DNA of 64,000 nucleotides from Niveibacterium sp. SC-1 (lineage in GTDB: Bacteria > Pseudomonadota > Gammaproteobacteria > Burkholderiales > Rhodocyclaceae): NCBI RefSeq assembly GCF_038235435.1, contig NZ_CP151275.1, forward strand, positions 1,054,001 to 1,118,000, written 5' to 3'. A program made the translations under genes and the position numbers. The notes beneath the pieces were generated by a model, which was not told the origin of the DNA, made no database searches, and saw only the letters and a program-made list of their open reading frames with translations. Shown piece by piece: positions 1 to 19,774 of the stretch (within the stretch, counting starts at the first letter, position 1; every line of letters begins with the position of its first letter).

Positions 1-2
1 TC

Positions 3-908
3 AAGTCGCTCGTGGTCGATGGCGAAGATCACACCGGCGATTGGTCGATCACCGACTTCACCGTTGCCGAACTCAAACAGTGGCTGGGCGGCACGACCTA
101 CGATGCGCGCAACGAGCGGCCGACCGCGGACAACGGCAAGTACCCGATCCTGACGATGCAGGAGATCATCGACATCGCGAAGGCCAAGAGCGCCTCGACC
201 GGCCGCGCGATCACGGTCTATCCCGAAGCGAAGAACCCGTACTGGAACAACCAGCAGGCGATCGCCAACGGCTGTGGAAGCGGTTCGCATCCGTTCGAGG
301 ATGCCATCGTCAAGCTGATCAAGGACAACAACCTGAACACCAAGAGCTCGCCGATTCTGGTGCAGAGCTTCGATCCTGCGAGCCTGAAATACATGCGTTC
401 GATCGGCCTGGCGACCCGCGTCGTGCAGCTCATCGACGGCAACGACGTCAACTATCAGACCGGCGCGATGATCTACCAGCAGCCGGACGCCTACAACTTC
501 GTCGACGGCCGACCCTACAGCTGGACGCTGGCCGGCGACGGTCGCTACTTCGGCGACATGCTCACGCCTGCCGGACTGGCCGAGATCAAGACTTACGCCG
601 ACGGCATCGGCCCGTGGAAACCGCAGGTGATGGCGCTCAGCGTGGTGCCGGCCAAGGCCGGCGCAGGCCTGGCTGACGTCAACACCCTGACGCCGACCAG
701 CGTGATCGCCGATGCGCACAAGCTGGGACTGTTCGTTCACGTCTACACCTTCCGCAACGAGCAGAAGTACCTGGCTGGCGTCTTCAAAGGCGACCCGGCG
801 GCCGAGTACCTGGCGTATTTCCGCGCCGGCGTCGACGGCGTCTTCACCGACTTCGCCAACGCCGGGTTCGCTGCGCGCAAGACCTATCTGACCGAGACCG
901 GCCGCTGA
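3..908 (+). CDS. Glycerophosphodiester phosphodiesterase (3' part, truncated by window edge)
   Basis: The reading frame is open from the left edge, so the true start lies outside; about 301 residues are visible. GDPD-family enzymes hydrolyse glycerophosphodiesters to glycerol-3-phosphate and an alcohol, often in the periplasm. The visible part shows the acidic strand motif VYPEAKNPYW near residue 80, the later barrel strand LVQSFDPASL, and a C-terminal GVDGVFTDFANAG strand, the usual order of the last two thirds of the GDPD TIM barrel. The catalytic HRG motif would be upstream of the window. A strong hairpin terminator follows. Family assignment is firm; substrate and location are inferred. 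Confidence 0.85.
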   Translation, partial: KSLVVDGEDHTGDWSITDFTVAELKQWLGGTTYDARNERPTADNGKYPILTMQEIIDIAKAKSASTGRAITVYPEAKNPYWNNQQAIANGCGSGSHPFEDAIVKLIKDNNLNTKSSPILVQSFDPASLKYMRSIGLATRVVQLIDGNDVNYQTGAMIYQQPDAYNFVDGRPYSWTLAGDGRYFGDMLTPAGLAEIKTYADGIGPWKPQVMALSVVPAKAGAGLADVNTLTPTSVIADAHKLGLFVHVYTFRNEQKYLAGVFKGDPAAEYLAYFRAGVDGVFTDFANAGFAARKTYLTETGR

Positions 909-1044
909 TCCCGTCCGTATGTTGCCGGTGCGTCTCGCGCCGGCGTCGGTGTCATGGTCCTGCCGCGCGCACGGGCCATGACACCCTGTCTTTCATGCAG
1001 CGGCGCGATAGCGGAGGACGCTAGCCCGATGTGACGCGTTCAAA

Positions 1045-13294: not shown

Positions 13295-13477
13295 GGCATT
13301 GCTCGTTCCTTGGGGGAGCGGCCATCTTCCCACGCGGATGCCCGGCTCCAGCGCGGAGGCGGCAAATCCGCAGGCTCGGAAAGGTCGGGGCGGCACGCTC
13401 GCGCGGCTGTTCGGCCCGTCCTCTTCTTGCCATAATCCACCGACGCCGGCTGCCCTGGGATCAGGACTGCCGGTGTT

Positions 13478-13562
13478 CATCCGCTAGGGGTGTTGGAGGT
13501 ACTGCCTCCGACTGAGAGAGTCCCTTTGAACCTGACTGAGGTAATCCTCGCGCAGGGAAGCC
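13478..13562 (+). promoter_or_regulatory. TPP riboswitch (THI box)
   Basis: The conserved blocks appear in order: GGGGTG (13487-13492), a short P3 stem GGAGG/CCTCC (13495-13499 with 13505-13509), CTGAGA (13512-13517), CCCTTTGAACCTGA (from about 13522), TAAT in the P4-P5 loop, and CGCAGGGAA (13551-13559). This is the thiamin-pyrophosphate aptamer. It sits 62 bases before the ATG of a pyrimidine transporter, so high TPP should shut that gene off. No U-tract terminator is obvious, so control may be at translation. Confidence 0.95.
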
Positions 13563-13623
13563 GGCGCCCCGCGAAGGGGCCTCGCCGCCCTGTGCTCGTT
13601 CGATCGAACAAGAAAGACCACGA

Positions 13624-14913
13624 ATGAACACGAGCACCACCCTGAGCGGGGCGGCCAGTACCGCCAGTTCCGCCAACACAGCCCTGTCCCCTTTGCCGCA
13701 GAGCGAGCGCGCCTTCGGCTGGCGCGAGCATGCCGCGCTCTGGATGAGCCTGGGCGTGGGCCTCCTGGTGATCCAGGTCGGCGCCTACCTCGTCCCGGCG
13801 CTGGGTGCGCGCGGCGCACTGCTGGCGATCCTGTGTGGCTCGCTGCTCGGCGCCGGCCTGCTCGCCTGGACCGCGAAGATCGGCTGCGAGAGCGGACTCT
13901 CCAGCGCGGGCCTGATGCACGCAGCCTACGGCAGCCACTTCGCGCGCCTGCCGGTGCTGCTCAACATCGTCCAGCTGGTCGGCTGGACCACCTTCGAACT
14001 AGTGGTGATGCGCGATGGCACGGTCGCGATCGCGCGCCAGGGCGGTGCGCCGCAGAGCGCGCTGTGGCCGGCGCTGACGACGCTGCTGTGGGGCGGCGCG
14101 CTCGCGGCCTTGATCTCCGGATCGATGGTGGGGTTGGTGCGCAAGTTCATCGGCCGCTTCGGCCTGCCGCTGGTGATCGCCTCGCTCCTGTGGCTCTCCT
14201 GGCAGTTCCTGCAACTGGCGAGCGCCCAGGGCATCGCGGCCGTATGGGCGCGGCCGGGGCAGGGCGGCATGAGCGTGCTCTCGGCGCTGGACCTGGTGAT
14301 CGCGATGCCGGTCTCGTGGTTGCCGCTGGTGGCGGATTTCGCGCGCCACGGGCGTGACGGTCGCGGCGCGTTCGGCGGTACCTGGCTCGGCTACGCGCTC
14401 GCCAATGTGTGGTGCTACGCGCTGGGCGTGCTGGTGGCCCTGGTGGCGCCCAGCGAGGATCTGGTCGCCGCGCTGCTGCTCGCGCAGGGCGGGCTGATCG
14501 CGCTCGGCCTGATCCTGATCGACGAAGTCGACAACGCATACGGCGATGTCTATTCCGGTGCCGTCGCGAGCCACAGTCTCATGCCGGGCTGGAGCGCGCG
14601 CCGCTGGGGCGTGCTGATCGCCGCGGTCTGCACCGGGCTTGCGCTGGTGCTGCCGATGCACAGCCTGGAGCCTTTCCTGCTGATCCTGAGCTCGGTCTTC
14701 GTGCCGCTCTACGGCGTGATCCTCGCGCGCCTGTCCTTCCGCAAGCGCATCGCGGTGGATGCGCGCAAGGTGGATACGAGCGCGGTGGCGATCTGGCTGC
14801 TCGGCATCGCCACCTATCATCTCGCCGCGCAGTTCGCGCCGGACTACGGCTCCGCGCTGCCGGCGCTGGGCCTGAGCTTCGTCCTCGGCTGGATCACCCG
14901 CCGCGCGGATTGA
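13624..14913 (+). CDS. cytX: Hydroxymethylpyrimidine transporter CytX (NCS1 family)
   Basis: 429 residues with about 12 hydrophobic segments, the layout of cytosine/purine permeases (nucleobase:cation symporter-1). Key helices include LLVIQVGAYLVPALGARGAL and DLVIAMPVSWLPLVADFARHG. The upstream TPP riboswitch identifies the substrate class: thiamin precursors, most likely hydroxymethylpyrimidine, as for cytX elsewhere. No thiamin biosynthesis gene is adjacent. The ribosome site is weak (AAGAAAG). Confidence 0.88.
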   Translation: MNTSTTLSGAASTASSANTALSPLPQSERAFGWREHAALWMSLGVGLLVIQVGAYLVPALGARGALLAILCGSLLGAGLLAWTAKIGCESGLSSAGLMHAAYGSHFARLPVLLNIVQLVGWTTFELVVMRDGTVAIARQGGAPQSALWPALTTLLWGGALAALISGSMVGLVRKFIGRFGLPLVIASLLWLSWQFLQLASAQGIAAVWARPGQGGMSVLSALDLVIAMPVSWLPLVADFARHGRDGRGAFGGTWLGYALANVWCYALGVLVALVAPSEDLVAALLLAQGGLIALGLILIDEVDNAYGDVYSGAVASHSLMPGWSARRWGVLIAAVCTGLALVLPMHSLEPFLLILSSVFVPLYGVILARLSFRKRIAVDARKVDTSAVAIWLLGIATYHLAAQFAPDYGSALPALGLSFVLGWITRRAD

Positions 14914-14948: not shown

Positions 14949-16268
14949 TCAGCGGGGATCCGGTGTGCGGTCCCCGTCGCCGGACGAGCTCGGCGAGTAC
15001 TGCGGATTGCCCAGCTCACCCAGCCGGCTACCCTCGCGGACCGGCTGGTGCTTGGACTGGCCGATCCGCTGCGAGCGATAGATTCCGGTGTGGCCGGAAC
15101 ACAGGTAGCTCACCACGCAGGCCACCATCGCATACACGCCGACCTCCGCGCCGAAAAGCTCCATCGCCATCAGGGTCGAGGCCAGCGGCGTGTTGGCCGC
15201 GCCCGCGAACACGGCGACGAAGCCGATGCCCGCGAGCAGCGAGACGGGTTGGTGCAGCAGGGGCGCCAGCGCATTGCCCAGGGTCGCGCCGATGTAGAAG
15301 AGCGGCGTGACCTCGCCACCCTTGAAGCCACTCGCCAGCGAGGCGACGGTGAAGGCGAACTTGCCGGCGAAGTCCCAGGGCGCGAGCGGATGCTGGAAGG
15401 CCTCCACGATCACCGGGATTCCGAGCCCGATGTAGCGATCCGTGCCCACCGCCCAGACCGCGACGGCGACCACGATGCCGCCGACCAGCGGCCGCAACGG
15501 CGCATAGGCGAGCCGCCGCTTGATCCAGCCTCCCAGCGCATGGGTGGCGTCCGCGAAGAACTTGCCGACCAGGCCGAAGGCCGCACCCGCGATGCCCATG
15601 GCGAGCAAGGGCCAGGCGGAGATCGCCGGCACCGCGCTCACGGTGTAGTGCGTGTGATGCACGCCCCAGAGCAAGCCGACCTGATCGGCCACGATCGCTG
15701 CGAGCGTGCAGGGCAGGAGCGCGTCGTAGCGCAGGCGCCCGATCGCCAGCACCTCCAGCCCGAATACCGCGCCGGCGAGCGGCGTGCCGAACACCGAGGC
15801 GAAACCGGCGCTGATACCCGCCATCAGGATGATGCGGCGGTCCTCGCGCTGCAGCCGGAAGAGACGCGTGAGCTGGTCGGCGAGCGCGCCACCCATCTGC
15901 ACCGCCGTGCCTTCGCGGCCGACCGAAGCGCCGAAGAGGTGCGAGATCACCGTGCCGCCCAGCACCAGCGGCGCCATGCGCAGCGGGATCACTTTCTTCG
16001 GGTCGTGGATCTCGTCGATCAGCAGGTTGTTCCCGGCCTCGACCTCGCGGCCGAAGCGCAGGTAGAGCCAGCCGACGCCGAAGCCCGCGAGCGGCAACAG
16101 CCAGATCAGCCAGGGCCGCGCGTTGCGGGTGGCCGTGGCCCATTCGAGTGCGAAGAGGAAGAAGGCGGAGGCCGATCCTGCGAGCACTGCGACGGCGCAG
16201 GCGAGCAGCAGCCACTTGCCCAGGTAGGGCAGCAGATCGACGAGTTCAGGGCGGGAAGGGGTTTTCAT
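14949..16268 (-). CDS. clcF: CLC-F type fluoride/proton antiporter (EriC-F)
   Basis: 439 residues from ATG 16268 (AGACAGGA 8 bases upstream). CLC fold with about 12 membrane segments. The three selectivity motifs are of the divergent kind: EAGNNLLID (from residue 78) replaces GSGIP, GREGTAVQ (117-124; gating Glu119) replaces GKEGP, and KGGEVTPLF replaces GxFxP. This pattern is known for the fluoride-exporting CLC-F branch. A fluoride riboswitch directly upstream confirms the role: export of F- coupled to H+ at the inner membrane. Often annotated simply as a chloride channel. Confidence 0.9.
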   Translation of the reverse strand: MKTPSRPELVDLLPYLGKWLLLACAVAVLAGSASAFFLFALEWATATRNARPWLIWLLPLAGFGVGWLYLRFGREVEAGNNLLIDEIHDPKKVIPLRMAPLVLGGTVISHLFGASVGREGTAVQMGGALADQLTRLFRLQREDRRIILMAGISAGFASVFGTPLAGAVFGLEVLAIGRLRYDALLPCTLAAIVADQVGLLWGVHHTHYTVSAVPAISAWPLLAMGIAGAAFGLVGKFFADATHALGGWIKRRLAYAPLRPLVGGIVVAVAVWAVGTDRYIGLGIPVIVEAFQHPLAPWDFAGKFAFTVASLASGFKGGEVTPLFYIGATLGNALAPLLHQPVSLLAGIGFVAVFAGAANTPLASTLMAMELFGAEVGVYAMVACVVSYLCSGHTGIYRSQRIGQSKHQPVREGSRLGELGNPQYSPSSSGDGDRTPDPR

Positions 16269-16327
16269 GCATGTCCTGTCTTTGGCTGGGCATCGACCCG
16301 GACATGCGGAAGGCGGAGAACACATGC

Positions 16328-16408
16328 GCCTACACCTTCCCGGTCCGGGAATTCGTGTAGGCATCATCAGCCCCAAGGGCGGTTAAGGGAGGAATGCCAT
16401 CTCCGCGG
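16328..16408 (-). promoter_or_regulatory. Fluoride riboswitch (crcB motif) with expression platform
   Basis: Minus strand, 5' to 3': GGAGATGGCATTCCTCC (P1 stem GGAG/CTCC enclosing GATGG), TTAACCGCCC, then GGGGCTGATGATGCCTAC. These match the crcB consensus blocks. The loop GGCAT (16394-16398) pairs with ATGCC (16360-16364) as the pseudoknot; the consensus pair is different, so this is a compensatory change. Downstream a strong hairpin (16328-16362) has outer stem GCCTACAC/GTGTAGGC that reuses the GCC of the pseudoknot, a mutually exclusive switch. It precedes the CLC-F start by about 60 bases. Confidence 0.93.
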
Positions 16409-16461
16409 GCGAGGATAGCATGCGTCCTCGCCCTCACTGTCCGCGCGGTGGCGGTCGGCGA

Positions 16462-17196
16462 CTACTGGAACGCGTGCGCGGCTTCGAGCACGGCCAGCAC
16501 TTCCTGTGCGATCGCTTGCAGGGCGAGGGTGTCCTGGCGCTGCTCGCGGGGCAGGGTCACCCGGATGCGCGCGGCCACCGTCGCGGGACGTTCACCGAGC
16601 ACGAGCACGGTGTCGGCCAGGCGCACCGCCTCGACCACATCGTGGGTGACGATCACCGCCGTGATGCCGTGCTCGCGCAGCACGTCGGCAAGCAGTGCCT
16701 GCAGGCGTTGGCGGGTGAAGGGATCGACCGCGCTGAAGGGCTCGTCGAGCAACAGGATGCGCGGGCGGCGATAGAGCCCGCGCGCGATCGCGACGCGTTG
16801 CGCCTGTCCGCCCGAGAGCGCCTTGGGCAGCGAGGCGCCGTAGCCGGCGAGACCGACTTCGCGGAGCAGGATCTCGACCCAGGTGGCATCCACCTCGCCC
16901 GCGGCCGCATCGAAGGCCACGTTCTGCGCCACCGTGAGCCAGGGCAGCAGGCGCGGCTCCTGGAAGACGAAGCCGATGTCGCGCGTCACGCCGGTGAGCG
17001 CGCGGCCGTCGAGCCGGAGCGTGCCGGCGTAGTCGCGGTCCAGCCCGGCGAGGATGCGCAGGAGGGTGCTCTTGCCGCCACCGCTGGCGCCGACCACCGC
17101 CAGCACTTCGCCTTCGTCCAGACCGAGCTGCAGGTCGCGCAGCACCGGTTTCGCGCCGAAGCGTTTCTCGCCCAGTGCGAGTTGCAGCAGGCTCAT
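16462..17196 (-). CDS. ssuB: Sulfonate ABC transporter ATP-binding protein
   Basis: 244 residues from ATG 17196, which overlaps the ssuC stop by 4 bases. Walker A GASGGGKST (near 37-45), Q-loop FQEPRLLPW, signature LSGGQAQR, Walker B ILLLDEPFSAVD and the switch His in VTHDVVEA. Belongs to the nitrate/sulfonate/taurine importer class; powers uptake of aliphatic sulfonates. Last gene of ssuE-ssuA-ssuC-ssuB. A longer upstream in-frame extension is a shadow inside ssuC. Confidence 0.93.
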   Translation of the reverse strand: MSLLQLALGEKRFGAKPVLRDLQLGLDEGEVLAVVGASGGGKSTLLRILAGLDRDYAGTLRLDGRALTGVTRDIGFVFQEPRLLPWLTVAQNVAFDAAAGEVDATWVEILLREVGLAGYGASLPKALSGGQAQRVAIARGLYRRPRILLLDEPFSAVDPFTRQRLQALLADVLREHGITAVIVTHDVVEAVRLADTVLVLGERPATVAARIRVTLPREQRQDTLALQAIAQEVLAVLEAAHAFQ

Positions 17197-18059
17197 GCCG
17201 CACCTCGCGTGGCGAGCGTATCGCGCCAGTGCAGCTGGCGCTCCTCGACCCATTTCAACAGGCCGTCCGAGAGCTTGCCGACCAGGGCCAGCAGCACGAT
17301 GGCGGCGATCACGATGTCGGGCCGGCTCGTCTCGCGACCGTCCGACAGCAGGTAGCCCAGACCCTTTGTGGCGGCGATCAACTCGGCCGCGACCACGAAC
17401 ATCCAGGCCAGGCCGAGCCCGCCGCGCAGGCCGGTGAAGAGCGCGGGCAGCGCGGCGGGCAGCAGGATGCGGCGGGCCAGCGCGGTGCGCGAGAGGCCCT
17501 GGATCTCGCCCAGCTCGATCAGCTTGCGATCCACGTCGCGCAGGCCGCCCAGCAAGGTGAGGTACACCGGGAAGAAGGCCCCCAGCGCGATCAGCGTGAT
17601 CTTGGGCGTCTCGTCGATCCCCAGCCAGAGCAGCAGCAGCGGCACCCAGGCGAGGCTGGGCACCGCGCGCAGGGCCTGCAGGCTCGGGTCGAGCAGCCAT
17701 TCCAGCGGTCGCGACAGTCCTACAGCCAGCGCCAGCAACACGCCGGCCGTAGCGCCGAAGCCAAAGCCCACGGCGACGCGCAGCGTGCTGGCGCCCAGAT
17801 GGGTCCACAGCGCGCCGTCGGCGACCATGCTGCTCAGGGTGCGCAGGATCTCGCTGGGCGGCGGCAGCTGATGGCTGGCGATCCAGCCGGCGCGCACGCC
17901 CACTTCCAACCCGGCGAGGAGCAGTGCCGGCAGCAGCAGGCCCAGCGCCACCTGCAGCCCGCGCGAGCCGGCTTCGCGCGCCGGTGTAGCCGCAAGGCTC
18001 GGGGTGGCCGCCTGGGCGAATGCCGGATCCTCCAGCTCGGCAAGTGCGGTCTCGACCAT
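17193..18059 (-). CDS. ssuC: Sulfonate ABC transporter permease
   Basis: 288 residues from ATG 18059 (ACGGAG at good distance). Six hydrophobic segments and the binding-protein-dependent permease EAA loop (ELGEIQGLSRTALARRILLP). The N-terminal about 35 residues are cytoplasmic and Ala-rich. PSLAWVPLLLLWLGI is typical of SsuC/TauC permeases. Encoded between ssuA and ssuB; forms the transmembrane dimer of the importer. Confidence 0.93.
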   Translation of the reverse strand: MVETALAELEDPAFAQAATPSLAATPAREAGSRGLQVALGLLLPALLLAGLEVGVRAGWIASHQLPPPSEILRTLSSMVADGALWTHLGASTLRVAVGFGFGATAGVLLALAVGLSRPLEWLLDPSLQALRAVPSLAWVPLLLLWLGIDETPKITLIALGAFFPVYLTLLGGLRDVDRKLIELGEIQGLSRTALARRILLPAALPALFTGLRGGLGLAWMFVVAAELIAATKGLGYLLSDGRETSRPDIVIAAIVLLALVGKLSDGLLKWVEERQLHWRDTLATRGAA

Positions 18060-18091
18060 GACGGACTCCGTGACGGGGTCAGTGGCGCAAA

Positions 18092-19072
18092 TCAGGCGCT
18101 GACGATGCCGCGCGCGAAGCGCGGCTCCACCAGGGTGGCGATGACCTTGTTGGCGTCGGTGCCGGCGCGTACCAGTTGCTCGTCGAGCAGGATGGGCGCG
18201 GCTGCACGCAGGGCCTCGACGTGTTCGTCGCCGATCAGGGCGCGGCTGAAGTCGGTGCGCTTGAGCTGGTAGGCCGCCACCGCGGGCGAGAGCTTGGCTT
18301 CCTCGGCGAGGATCCGGGCGGTTTCCTGCGGGTTGGCGATGACCCACTGGCGCGCGCGTTCGTAGAGACGGATGACCGTCTGCACGTCCTCCGGATGCTC
18401 GGCGGCGAACTTCTCGCTCACGTTGAGGAAGCCGTAGGTATTGAACCCGACGTTGCGATAGATGAGGCGCGAGCCCGCATCCAGCTCGCTCGCGGCGAGG
18501 TGCGGATCGAGCCCGGCCCAGGCATCCACCTGGCCCTGTTCGAGCGCCACGCGACCGTCGGCGTGTTGCAGATGCACGATCTCGACGTCGTTCTTCTTGA
18601 GGCCGAATTCATGCAGGCTGCGCAGCAGGAAGAGGTAGGGATCGGTGCCCTTGGTCGCGGCCACCTTGCGGCCCTTGAGCTCCGGCACGCTCTTGAGCGG
18701 CGAGCTCTTGGCCACGGCCAGCGCGGTCCACTCGGGGCGCGAATAGACATAGACCGACTTGATCGGATTGCCGTTGGCACGGGCGAGCAGCGCGGCGAGG
18801 CCGGCGGTGCTGCCGAAATCCACGCTGCCTGCGTTCAGGTATTCGAGCGCGCGGTTGCTGCCTGCACTCTGCACCCAGCGCACCTGGGTGCCTTTGGCCT
18901 TGTAGGTGTCCTCGACCCAGCCCTGGCGTTTGAGCACCAGGGAGGCCGGCGAGTAGTAGGCGAAGTCCAGGCGCAGTTCGGTGGGGGCCTCGGCGGCGAA
19001 GGCGCGGGACGGGAGCGCGGCGAGCGCGCCGAGGCCGGCACCCAGCTTCAGGAAATTGCGACGTTGGGTCAT
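18092..19072 (-). CDS. ssuA: Aliphatic sulfonate-binding periplasmic protein
   Basis: 326 residues. Tat-like signal: RRNFLK followed by a hydrophobic stretch, cleavage near residue 26 (SRAFAA). Mature part LRLDFAYYSPASLVLKRQGW and GSTAGLAALLARANG is the SsuA/NrtA/TauA two-lobed fold. Captures alkanesulfonates for the SsuBC importer. Preceded by ssuE with a gap of 87 bases. Confidence 0.92.
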   Translation of the reverse strand: MTQRRNFLKLGAGLGALAALPSRAFAAEAPTELRLDFAYYSPASLVLKRQGWVEDTYKAKGTQVRWVQSAGSNRALEYLNAGSVDFGSTAGLAALLARANGNPIKSVYVYSRPEWTALAVAKSSPLKSVPELKGRKVAATKGTDPYLFLLRSLHEFGLKKNDVEIVHLQHADGRVALEQGQVDAWAGLDPHLAASELDAGSRLIYRNVGFNTYGFLNVSEKFAAEHPEDVQTVIRLYERARQWVIANPQETARILAEEAKLSPAVAAYQLKRTDFSRALIGDEHVEALRAAAPILLDEQLVRAGTDANKVIATLVEPRFARGIVSA

Positions 19073-19159
19073 CTTGCAGGTGTCCTGTCGGGAGGGAGTG
19101 GGGCGTGGGCCCCGGAGCTGCGGCCGTGCGTGCGGCGCGCAGTCTCTGGAAAAACGGGC

Positions 19160-19774
19160 TCAGGCGCGGGCGAGTTGCAGCGGGGCGTTGCCGCGGACGA
19201 AGCGGCCTGCGCCTTCGTCGCTGGCTGCGCCGAAGAAGGGCACCTGCAGGCGCGCGAGCGTCTCGTCCAGGTGGGCGATGCCTTCTTCCAGGCGCAAGTC
19301 CAGTTCGGGCGAGAGCAGGACGCCGCCATCACTGTCGCTGCCGATCTCGGCGTCGGTGGCATACACGCTGGCCAGCACATAGCGGGCGCCCAGCGCGGCG
19401 AGTACCGGCCGCAGGGCGTAGTCCAGTGCGAGCAGGTGCGCCTTGCTGCCGCCGGTGGCCAGCGGCAGGACTACCTTGCCCTTGAGCCCGTCCTGCGGCA
19501 GCAGGTCGAGGAAGCTCTTGAGCAGGCCGCTGTAGGCGGCCTTGTAGACCGGCGTGGCGATGACCACGCCGGTGGCGCGTGCGACCTGGGCGCTGGCCTC
19601 GACGATCTGCGGATGGTCGAAACGGGCGTGGAGCAGGGCTTCGGCCGGCAGCTCGCGCACGGGCAGGCGTTCGGTCACGTGGCCCAGCTTGCGCAGGCGC
19701 GCCGCGGCATGGTCGAGCAGGCGGCCGGAGCGGGAATTGAGTGACGGGCTGCCCGAGATGGTGAGCAGGGACAT
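19160..19774 (-). CDS. ssuE: NADPH-dependent FMN reductase SsuE
   Basis: 204 residues. Flavodoxin-like: phosphate-binding loop SGSPSLNSRSGRLLDHA near the N terminus, and ATPVYKAAYSGLLKSFLDLLP, the SsuE/MsuE signature. Supplies reduced flavin to a two-component sulfonate monooxygenase. First gene of the ssu operon; AGAGAGG before ATG 19774. The partner monooxygenase SsuD is not in the operon or window. Confidence 0.93.
   Translation of the reverse strand: MSLLTISGSPSLNSRSGRLLDHAAARLRKLGHVTERLPVRELPAEALLHARFDHPQIVEASAQVARATGVVIATPVYKAAYSGLLKSFLDLLPQDGLKGKVVLPLATGGSKAHLLALDYALRPVLAALGARYVLASVYATDAEIGSDSDGGVLLSPELDLRLEEGIAHLDETLARLQVPFFGAASDEGAGRFVRGNAPLQLARA

Follow-up and report, generated by a model that had tools for sequence, protein, structure and literature searches.

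A Predicted Fluoride Riboswitch and a Candidate Translational Relay Upstream of a CLC-F Type Antiporter Gene in Niveibacterium sp. SC-1

Introduction

A CLC-family gene of Niveibacterium sp. SC-1 lies directly behind a leader that resembles a fluoride-responsive element, and we asked whether this leader is a genuine fluoride riboswitch, at which level it would act, and what the protein behind it would transport. The DNA analysed is a stretch of 64,000 nucleotides, referred to as the window throughout. An initial annotation, made from the letters alone, had read the locus as a fluoride riboswitch controlling a CLC-F antiporter, and this reading is supported by our analyses. We are largely confident that a canonical fluoride riboswitch turns on the translation of a CLC-F fluoride/proton antiporter here. 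Riboswitch-controlled CLC-F antiporters as such are already known; a 2012 study by Stockbridge et al. reportedly has them in its title. Besides, crcB and eriC-F are described as the two commonest genes behind the fluoride riboswitch (PMC5533749, partial text).

An intact fluoride riboswitch aptamer in the clcF leader

The aptamer and the gene comprise the following features:

16351-16413, minus strand: fluoride riboswitch aptamer (crcB motif), RF01734 match of 55.2 bits against a gathering score of 34
16394-16398, minus strand: 5' strand of the pseudoknot, GGCAU, pairing with AUGCC 16364-16360
16360-16364, minus strand: 3' strand of the pseudoknot, AUGCC, common to the pseudoknot and a downstream hairpin (hairpin D)
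14949-16268, minus strand: clcF, predicted CLC-F type fluoride/proton antiporter of 439 aa (ATG 16268-16266, TGA 14951-14949)

When the whole 64-kb window was searched with cmscan, RF01734 matched over its full length (model positions 1-64 of 64, E 1.4e-12), and the clcF ORF begins 82 nt downstream of this match. P1 (GGAG 16404-16401/CUCC 16391-16388, minus strand), P2 (GCCC 16380-16377/GGGC 16373-16370, minus strand) and the pseudoknot are all intact; as the structure line of the Rfam alignment covers the two hairpins only, the pseudoknot pairing is additional support. By its covariance-model match the element is a fluoride riboswitch, which would be expected to bind fluoride together with Mg2+. 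An overlapping match to PhotoRC-I RNA remained below threshold (18 bits against a gathering score of 45) and was rejected. With 150 of 750 first-look candidates scored, the clcF leader is the single fluoride riboswitch match in the 5.17-Mb genome.

These results bear out the proposal of the initial annotation that all blocks of the crcB aptamer stand 5' of the CLC gene, and the covariance-model search that it had suggested came out well above the gathering score. The span given there, 16328-16408, denotes the right element, albeit slightly displaced, as it lacks the first five bases of the match and extends 23 bases beyond the match end.

The same annotation had pointed to an atypical pseudoknot that nevertheless pairs. 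Compared with the RF01734 consensus GGaGU/ACUCC, the window pseudoknot GGCAU/AUGCC indeed differs in two pairs, each changed on both sides, and the pairing itself holds. Searching the genomes of 84,980 species yielded 337 ClcF homologues, and the best 80 of these 337 were taken further. RF01734 scored above gathering upstream of clcF, on the coding strand, in 41 of these 80 loci, the aptamer end lying no more than about 200 nt ahead of the protein match. The pseudoknot can pair in all 42 leaders (the window and its 41 relatives). Its 5' strand reads GGCAU in 40 of them; the remaining two carry GGUAU, with a G-U pair, and GGCGU opposite ACGCC, a two-sided change. GGCAU/AUGCC is hence the norm of this clade, and the reading of the window pseudoknot as unusual was rejected.

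Coevolving alternative pairings between aptamer and start codon

Four elements occupy the stretch from the 3' part of the aptamer to the start codon:

16329-16361, minus strand: hairpin D, alternative to the pseudoknot, closed by CCUACA 16361-16356/UGUAGG 16334-16329
16343-16349, minus strand: strand A, CCCGGAC, upper part of hairpin D, 7 pairs with B
16297-16307, minus strand: strand B, of which GUCCGGG 16303-16297 pairs with A and GCAUGUCC 16307-16300 pairs with C
16269-16276, minus strand: strand C, ribosome-site region GGACAUGC adjoining the start codon, 8 pairs with B in the MFE fold

Hairpin D sits at the 3' edge of the aptamer, where it overlaps the pseudoknot strand AUGCC, and the MFE fold of the window leader contains it. 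The best match to its base within a 32-nt range shows all six pairs in 35 of the 42 leaders, and covarying forms of this base (CCUGCA/UGCAGG, CCUACG/CGUAGG and CCUGUU/AACAGG) are found among them.

Coevolution of the strands was tested by swapping partner strands among the 42 loci in 5000 permutations. The A-B duplexes averaged -19.8 kcal/mol with their own partners against -16.0 kcal/mol when swapped, the B-C duplexes -16.4 against -13.0 kcal/mol, and for neither duplex was the own mean attained in any of the 5000 permutations. For A-C, taken as control, there was no gain, 4547 of 5000 permutations reaching the own mean. In 35 (A-B) and 36 (B-C) of the 42 leaders the own partner was better than the median swap; it was the very best of the 42 in only four leaders for each duplex, as would be expected if near relatives share partners. 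Since A had comprised the whole upper part of hairpin D in the first A-B test, which possibly inflated the result, A was also cut to 14 nt, with the same outcome: A-B and B-C were again reached by 0 of 5000 permutations, also in a reduced set of 32 leaders from which ten near copies had been dropped, and A-C again showed no gain. The start codons were set by hand in 16 of the 42 leaders.

The same portion of B is used in both duplexes in 31 of the 42 leaders. The window leader was scored as having no overlap, its best ungapped B-C run (score 8) lying elsewhere in B; the GCAUGUCC/GGACAUGC helix is that of the MFE fold. The alternative pairings themselves are thus evident from the aligned leaders. 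From them we incline, if only somewhat, to the view that the clcF leaders of beta- and gammaproteobacteria share a conserved relay of coevolving A-B and B-C duplexes, in which an aptamer-side strand imitates the ribosome site and both compete for one blocking strand, and that this would be a translational platform not modelled so far for the fluoride class.

Direction and level of the switch

Compared with its shuffles, the window leader has a somewhat better fold (z -2.36, with 3 of 200 as good). In all 42 leaders the free fold was compared with one in which P1 was forced and the pseudoknot strands and the next three bases were kept unpaired. Upon forcing of the aptamer, hairpin D fell in 40 of 42 leaders, and B-C pairing went down in 32 and up in three. 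A-B pairing rose in 28 and decreased in none, the other 14 showing no clear gain. The start region opened clearly in 20 leaders and closed in three, and in the window its unpaired probability increased from 0.35 to 0.61. A looser aptamer constraint gave a small mean opening of the start region, from 0.36 to 0.41, upward in 31 of 42. Without the constraint the leaders fold about 10 kcal/mol better on average (57.9 vs 47.8), the energies of pseudoknot and ligand being outside the model, so that switching would need these energies or co-transcriptional folding. Taken together, the fold models back in part a translational switch that is ON with fluoride.

The same riboswitch could instead act mainly on transcription, through Rho-dependent or some other unrecognised termination, with burial of the ribosome site as a secondary matter. 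Such a mode would be in keeping with the fact that poor translation can expose an mRNA to Rho, and fluoride riboswitches elsewhere do use terminators (PMC8814607 and PMC13273304, partial texts). No terminator-like (intrinsic) site, however, was called between 16200 and 16560, and a mechanism acting on transcription only would not require the coevolution of B with C at the ribosome site; we therefore regard control mainly at transcription as unlikely, though the most serious of the alternatives.

For the translational switch, we infer the following course. In the absence of fluoride, the aptamer's 3' end, and with it the pseudoknot strand, would be drawn into hairpin D, which would also hold strand A, while strand B would pair with strand C and bury the ribosome site and the start codon. 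Fluoride with Mg2+ would lock the pseudoknot, and hairpin D would then be unable to close; strand A, once freed, would take strand B, and the A-B duplex would release strand C and the AUG, turning translation ON. The ClcF protein so produced would expel fluoride in exchange for protons.

Promoter and genomic neighbourhood

One further element was placed just upstream of the aptamer stem:

16412-16417, minus strand: likely -10 element TATCCT with TGC before it (extended -10), 7 nt before P1; TGCTATCCT in the window

A strict two-box promoter scan of the window leader found none. In 31 of the 42 leaders the best-scoring -10 candidate, located 7-10 nt before P1, has the form TA...T; 21 of the 42 carry TG ahead of their best hexamer, and the mean -10 score is 5.06 vs 3.04 for the upstream background. 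It is therefore likely, judging from these motifs, that transcription starts at or just 5' of P1. Besides, a perfect 9-pair inverted repeat, GGGCGAGGA/TCCTCGCCC (16407-16433, minus strand), stands just ahead of the aptamer and shares bases with the likely -10 element. The terminator search gave no site at this repeat, which may end the ssu transcript described next or mark a regulator site.

Directly upstream of the clcF leader, on the same strand, lies an ssu-like sulfonate cluster (16462-19774, minus strand) with genes for an ABC ATPase, a permease (BPD_transp_1), an SsuA-family binding protein and an SsuE-type FMN reductase. As these genes end at 16462 on the strand of clcF, read-through into clcF is possible. 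On the other side, a TPP riboswitch (13476-13575, plus strand; 57.6 bits against a gathering score of 54.3) precedes a CytX-like hydroxymethylpyrimidine transporter gene (13624-14913), convergent with clcF, which matches TIGR02358 with 243.7 bits, under the cut-off of 309.85.

The position of clcF behind the ssu-like genes, whose ATPase stop codon is at 16464-16462 (minus strand), raises a second alternative, namely that the aptamer is a relic and that clcF expression, driven from the upstream ssu genes or by its own promoter, does not depend on fluoride. Relatives of the gene do exist without a recognisable aptamer. Of the 39 loci among the best 80 that gave no match above gathering, 20 were rechecked at a lower threshold, which added three weak aptamers, of which one is truncated where its contig stops, and the remaining 19 were checked by a simple pattern over their first 1100 bases. 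In the regions searched, the aptamer was not found in 36 of the 80 loci, among them L055, which has no upstream sequence. An extended -10-like site stands no further than 40 nt from where the protein match begins in 14 of these 36, and in 12 of them it is 9-13 nt before the match, as though clcF were constitutive and leaderless there. Yet the window aptamer is a full-length match of 55.2 bits with every pairing intact, and its leader retains the D, A-B and B-C pairings, so that a relic appears very improbable, more so than control at the transcriptional level.

The 12 sites read TTGYTANNAT and belong to Duganella/Rugamonas loci (L057, L062, L068, L069, L072, L076, L080 and L082-L086, at about 960-1003). 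From this arrangement it looks as if the riboswitch had been lost or never gained in these aptamer-less clcF genes, with an mRNA that would be nearly leaderless. Riboswitches have been reported to control about 30% of CLC-F genes (PMC11139923, partial text).

Within the genus of the window, one of seven genomes gave a riboswitch match (150 of 470 to 776 first-look candidates scored per genome), and a close ClcF match was confined to the window's own genome, the best elsewhere in the genus being 2.7e-15. Hence, the riboswitch-clcF pair seems patchy in the genus and may have been acquired. The window's genome also has a Fluc/CrcB gene (L090, G000:C1:3476025-3476360, 89.1 bits); both exporter types together were reported in only about 3% of surveyed strains (PMC11139923, partial text).

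Two further arrangements were seen among the relatives. In Achromobacter veterisilvae (L081), two fluoride riboswitches diverge (693-760, minus strand, and 844-917, plus strand), one before clcF and the other before an ORF (2-637, minus strand) without Pfam match at E 0.001. Two Herbaspirillum loci (L042, 2727-2817, minus strand; L048, 2724-2814, minus strand) have C4 antisense RNA matches on the downstream side of clcF. Because C4 antisense RNA belongs to phages, a prophage may adjoin clcF at both loci.

The gene product is of the CLC-F type

Pfam assigns ClcF to Voltage_CLC ('Voltage gated chloride channel', 249.8 bits), and an NCBIfam search returned the ClcA and ClcB models alone, far under their cut-offs. 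Among solved structures, phmmer ranked 6d0j first by a wide distance (6.2e-60, over residues 21-402), followed by Sll0855 (3.3e-11) and ClcA (3.3e-8). The CLC-F signatures are given as GNNLI/GMGLI, GREGT/V and GEVTP (PMC11139923, partial text); ClcF reads GNNLL, GREGT and GEVTP and agrees with this signature test, with L rather than I as the fifth residue of the first motif.

A tree was computed from 22 rows, comprising the window protein, 14 of the 80 relatives, two paralogs, four CLCs of the genus and 6d0j; the weak genus match L007 was not included. ClcF, its relatives and 6d0j split from the remaining CLCs at 100/99, in a midpoint-rooted tree with a long branch on the 6d0j row. The two further CLC matches of the genome have ClcA-type proteins as their best structure hits and carry the motifs GSGIP/GREGP (L008) and GHGIP/GAEGP (L009). 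We conclude that the window CLC is of the CLC-F type, and fluoride is its predicted substrate. An ordinary chloride CLC that came to stand behind a fluoride riboswitch by chance, as the Pfam name might suggest, is scarcely credible and was rejected, being contradicted by the CLC-F signatures, by 6d0j as best solved relative and by the placement in the tree apart from the other CLCs of the genome.

Regarding the protein, the initial annotation had recognised motifs of the fluoride type, which the ORF and its three signatures confirm, and had suggested a phylogeny, which indeed places the protein with 6d0j, away from those CLCs of the genus that are of the GSGIP/GREGP type. Misannotation of the gene as a chloride channel is plausible in view of the Pfam name; the NCBIfam models for ClcA and ClcB stayed far below their cut-offs. 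The gene thereby gains a likely correct name, as a fluoride exporter under fluoride control, in place of the Pfam label of a chloride channel.

Comparison with known systems

As an aptamer, the window element agrees with the RF01734 class in its full length, in P1, P2 and the pseudoknot, and in its site before a putative fluoride exporter gene. The protein may be compared with 6d0j, a CLC-F fluoride/proton antiporter that originates from Enterococcus casseliflavus; CLC-F proteins are described as exchanging fluoride for protons with a more than 80-fold selectivity over chloride (PMC11139923, partial text for both). GREG followed by T/V, as well as GEVTP, are common to both proteins, whereas the first motif is GNNLL in the window ClcF and GMNLV in 6d0j.

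Translational fluoride riboswitches are recognised (PMC8814607; PMC13273304, partial texts), and those of Pseudomonas syringae and a Burkholderia are reported as translational controls (PMC13273304, partial text). The latter, a 2026 study of covariation in full fluoride riboswitches, describes a terminator filter applied first and a wider search that gave one aptamer-plus-hairpin motif, taken by its authors to cover both kinds, and also models the overlap of the aptamer pseudoknot with a downstream hairpin (PMC13273304, partial text). No description of the A-B-C relay was found in the literature that we searched, a set outside which the founding papers of the fluoride riboswitch lie. The window leader shares with the translational fluoride riboswitches that no terminator was found and that a downstream hairpin overlaps the pseudoknot strand; it may differ from them in the A-B-C relay of the clcF leaders, which coevolution suggests. 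In the 42 aligned leaders, coevolution becomes visible for translational fluoride riboswitches, the arm of this class that has been modelled less.
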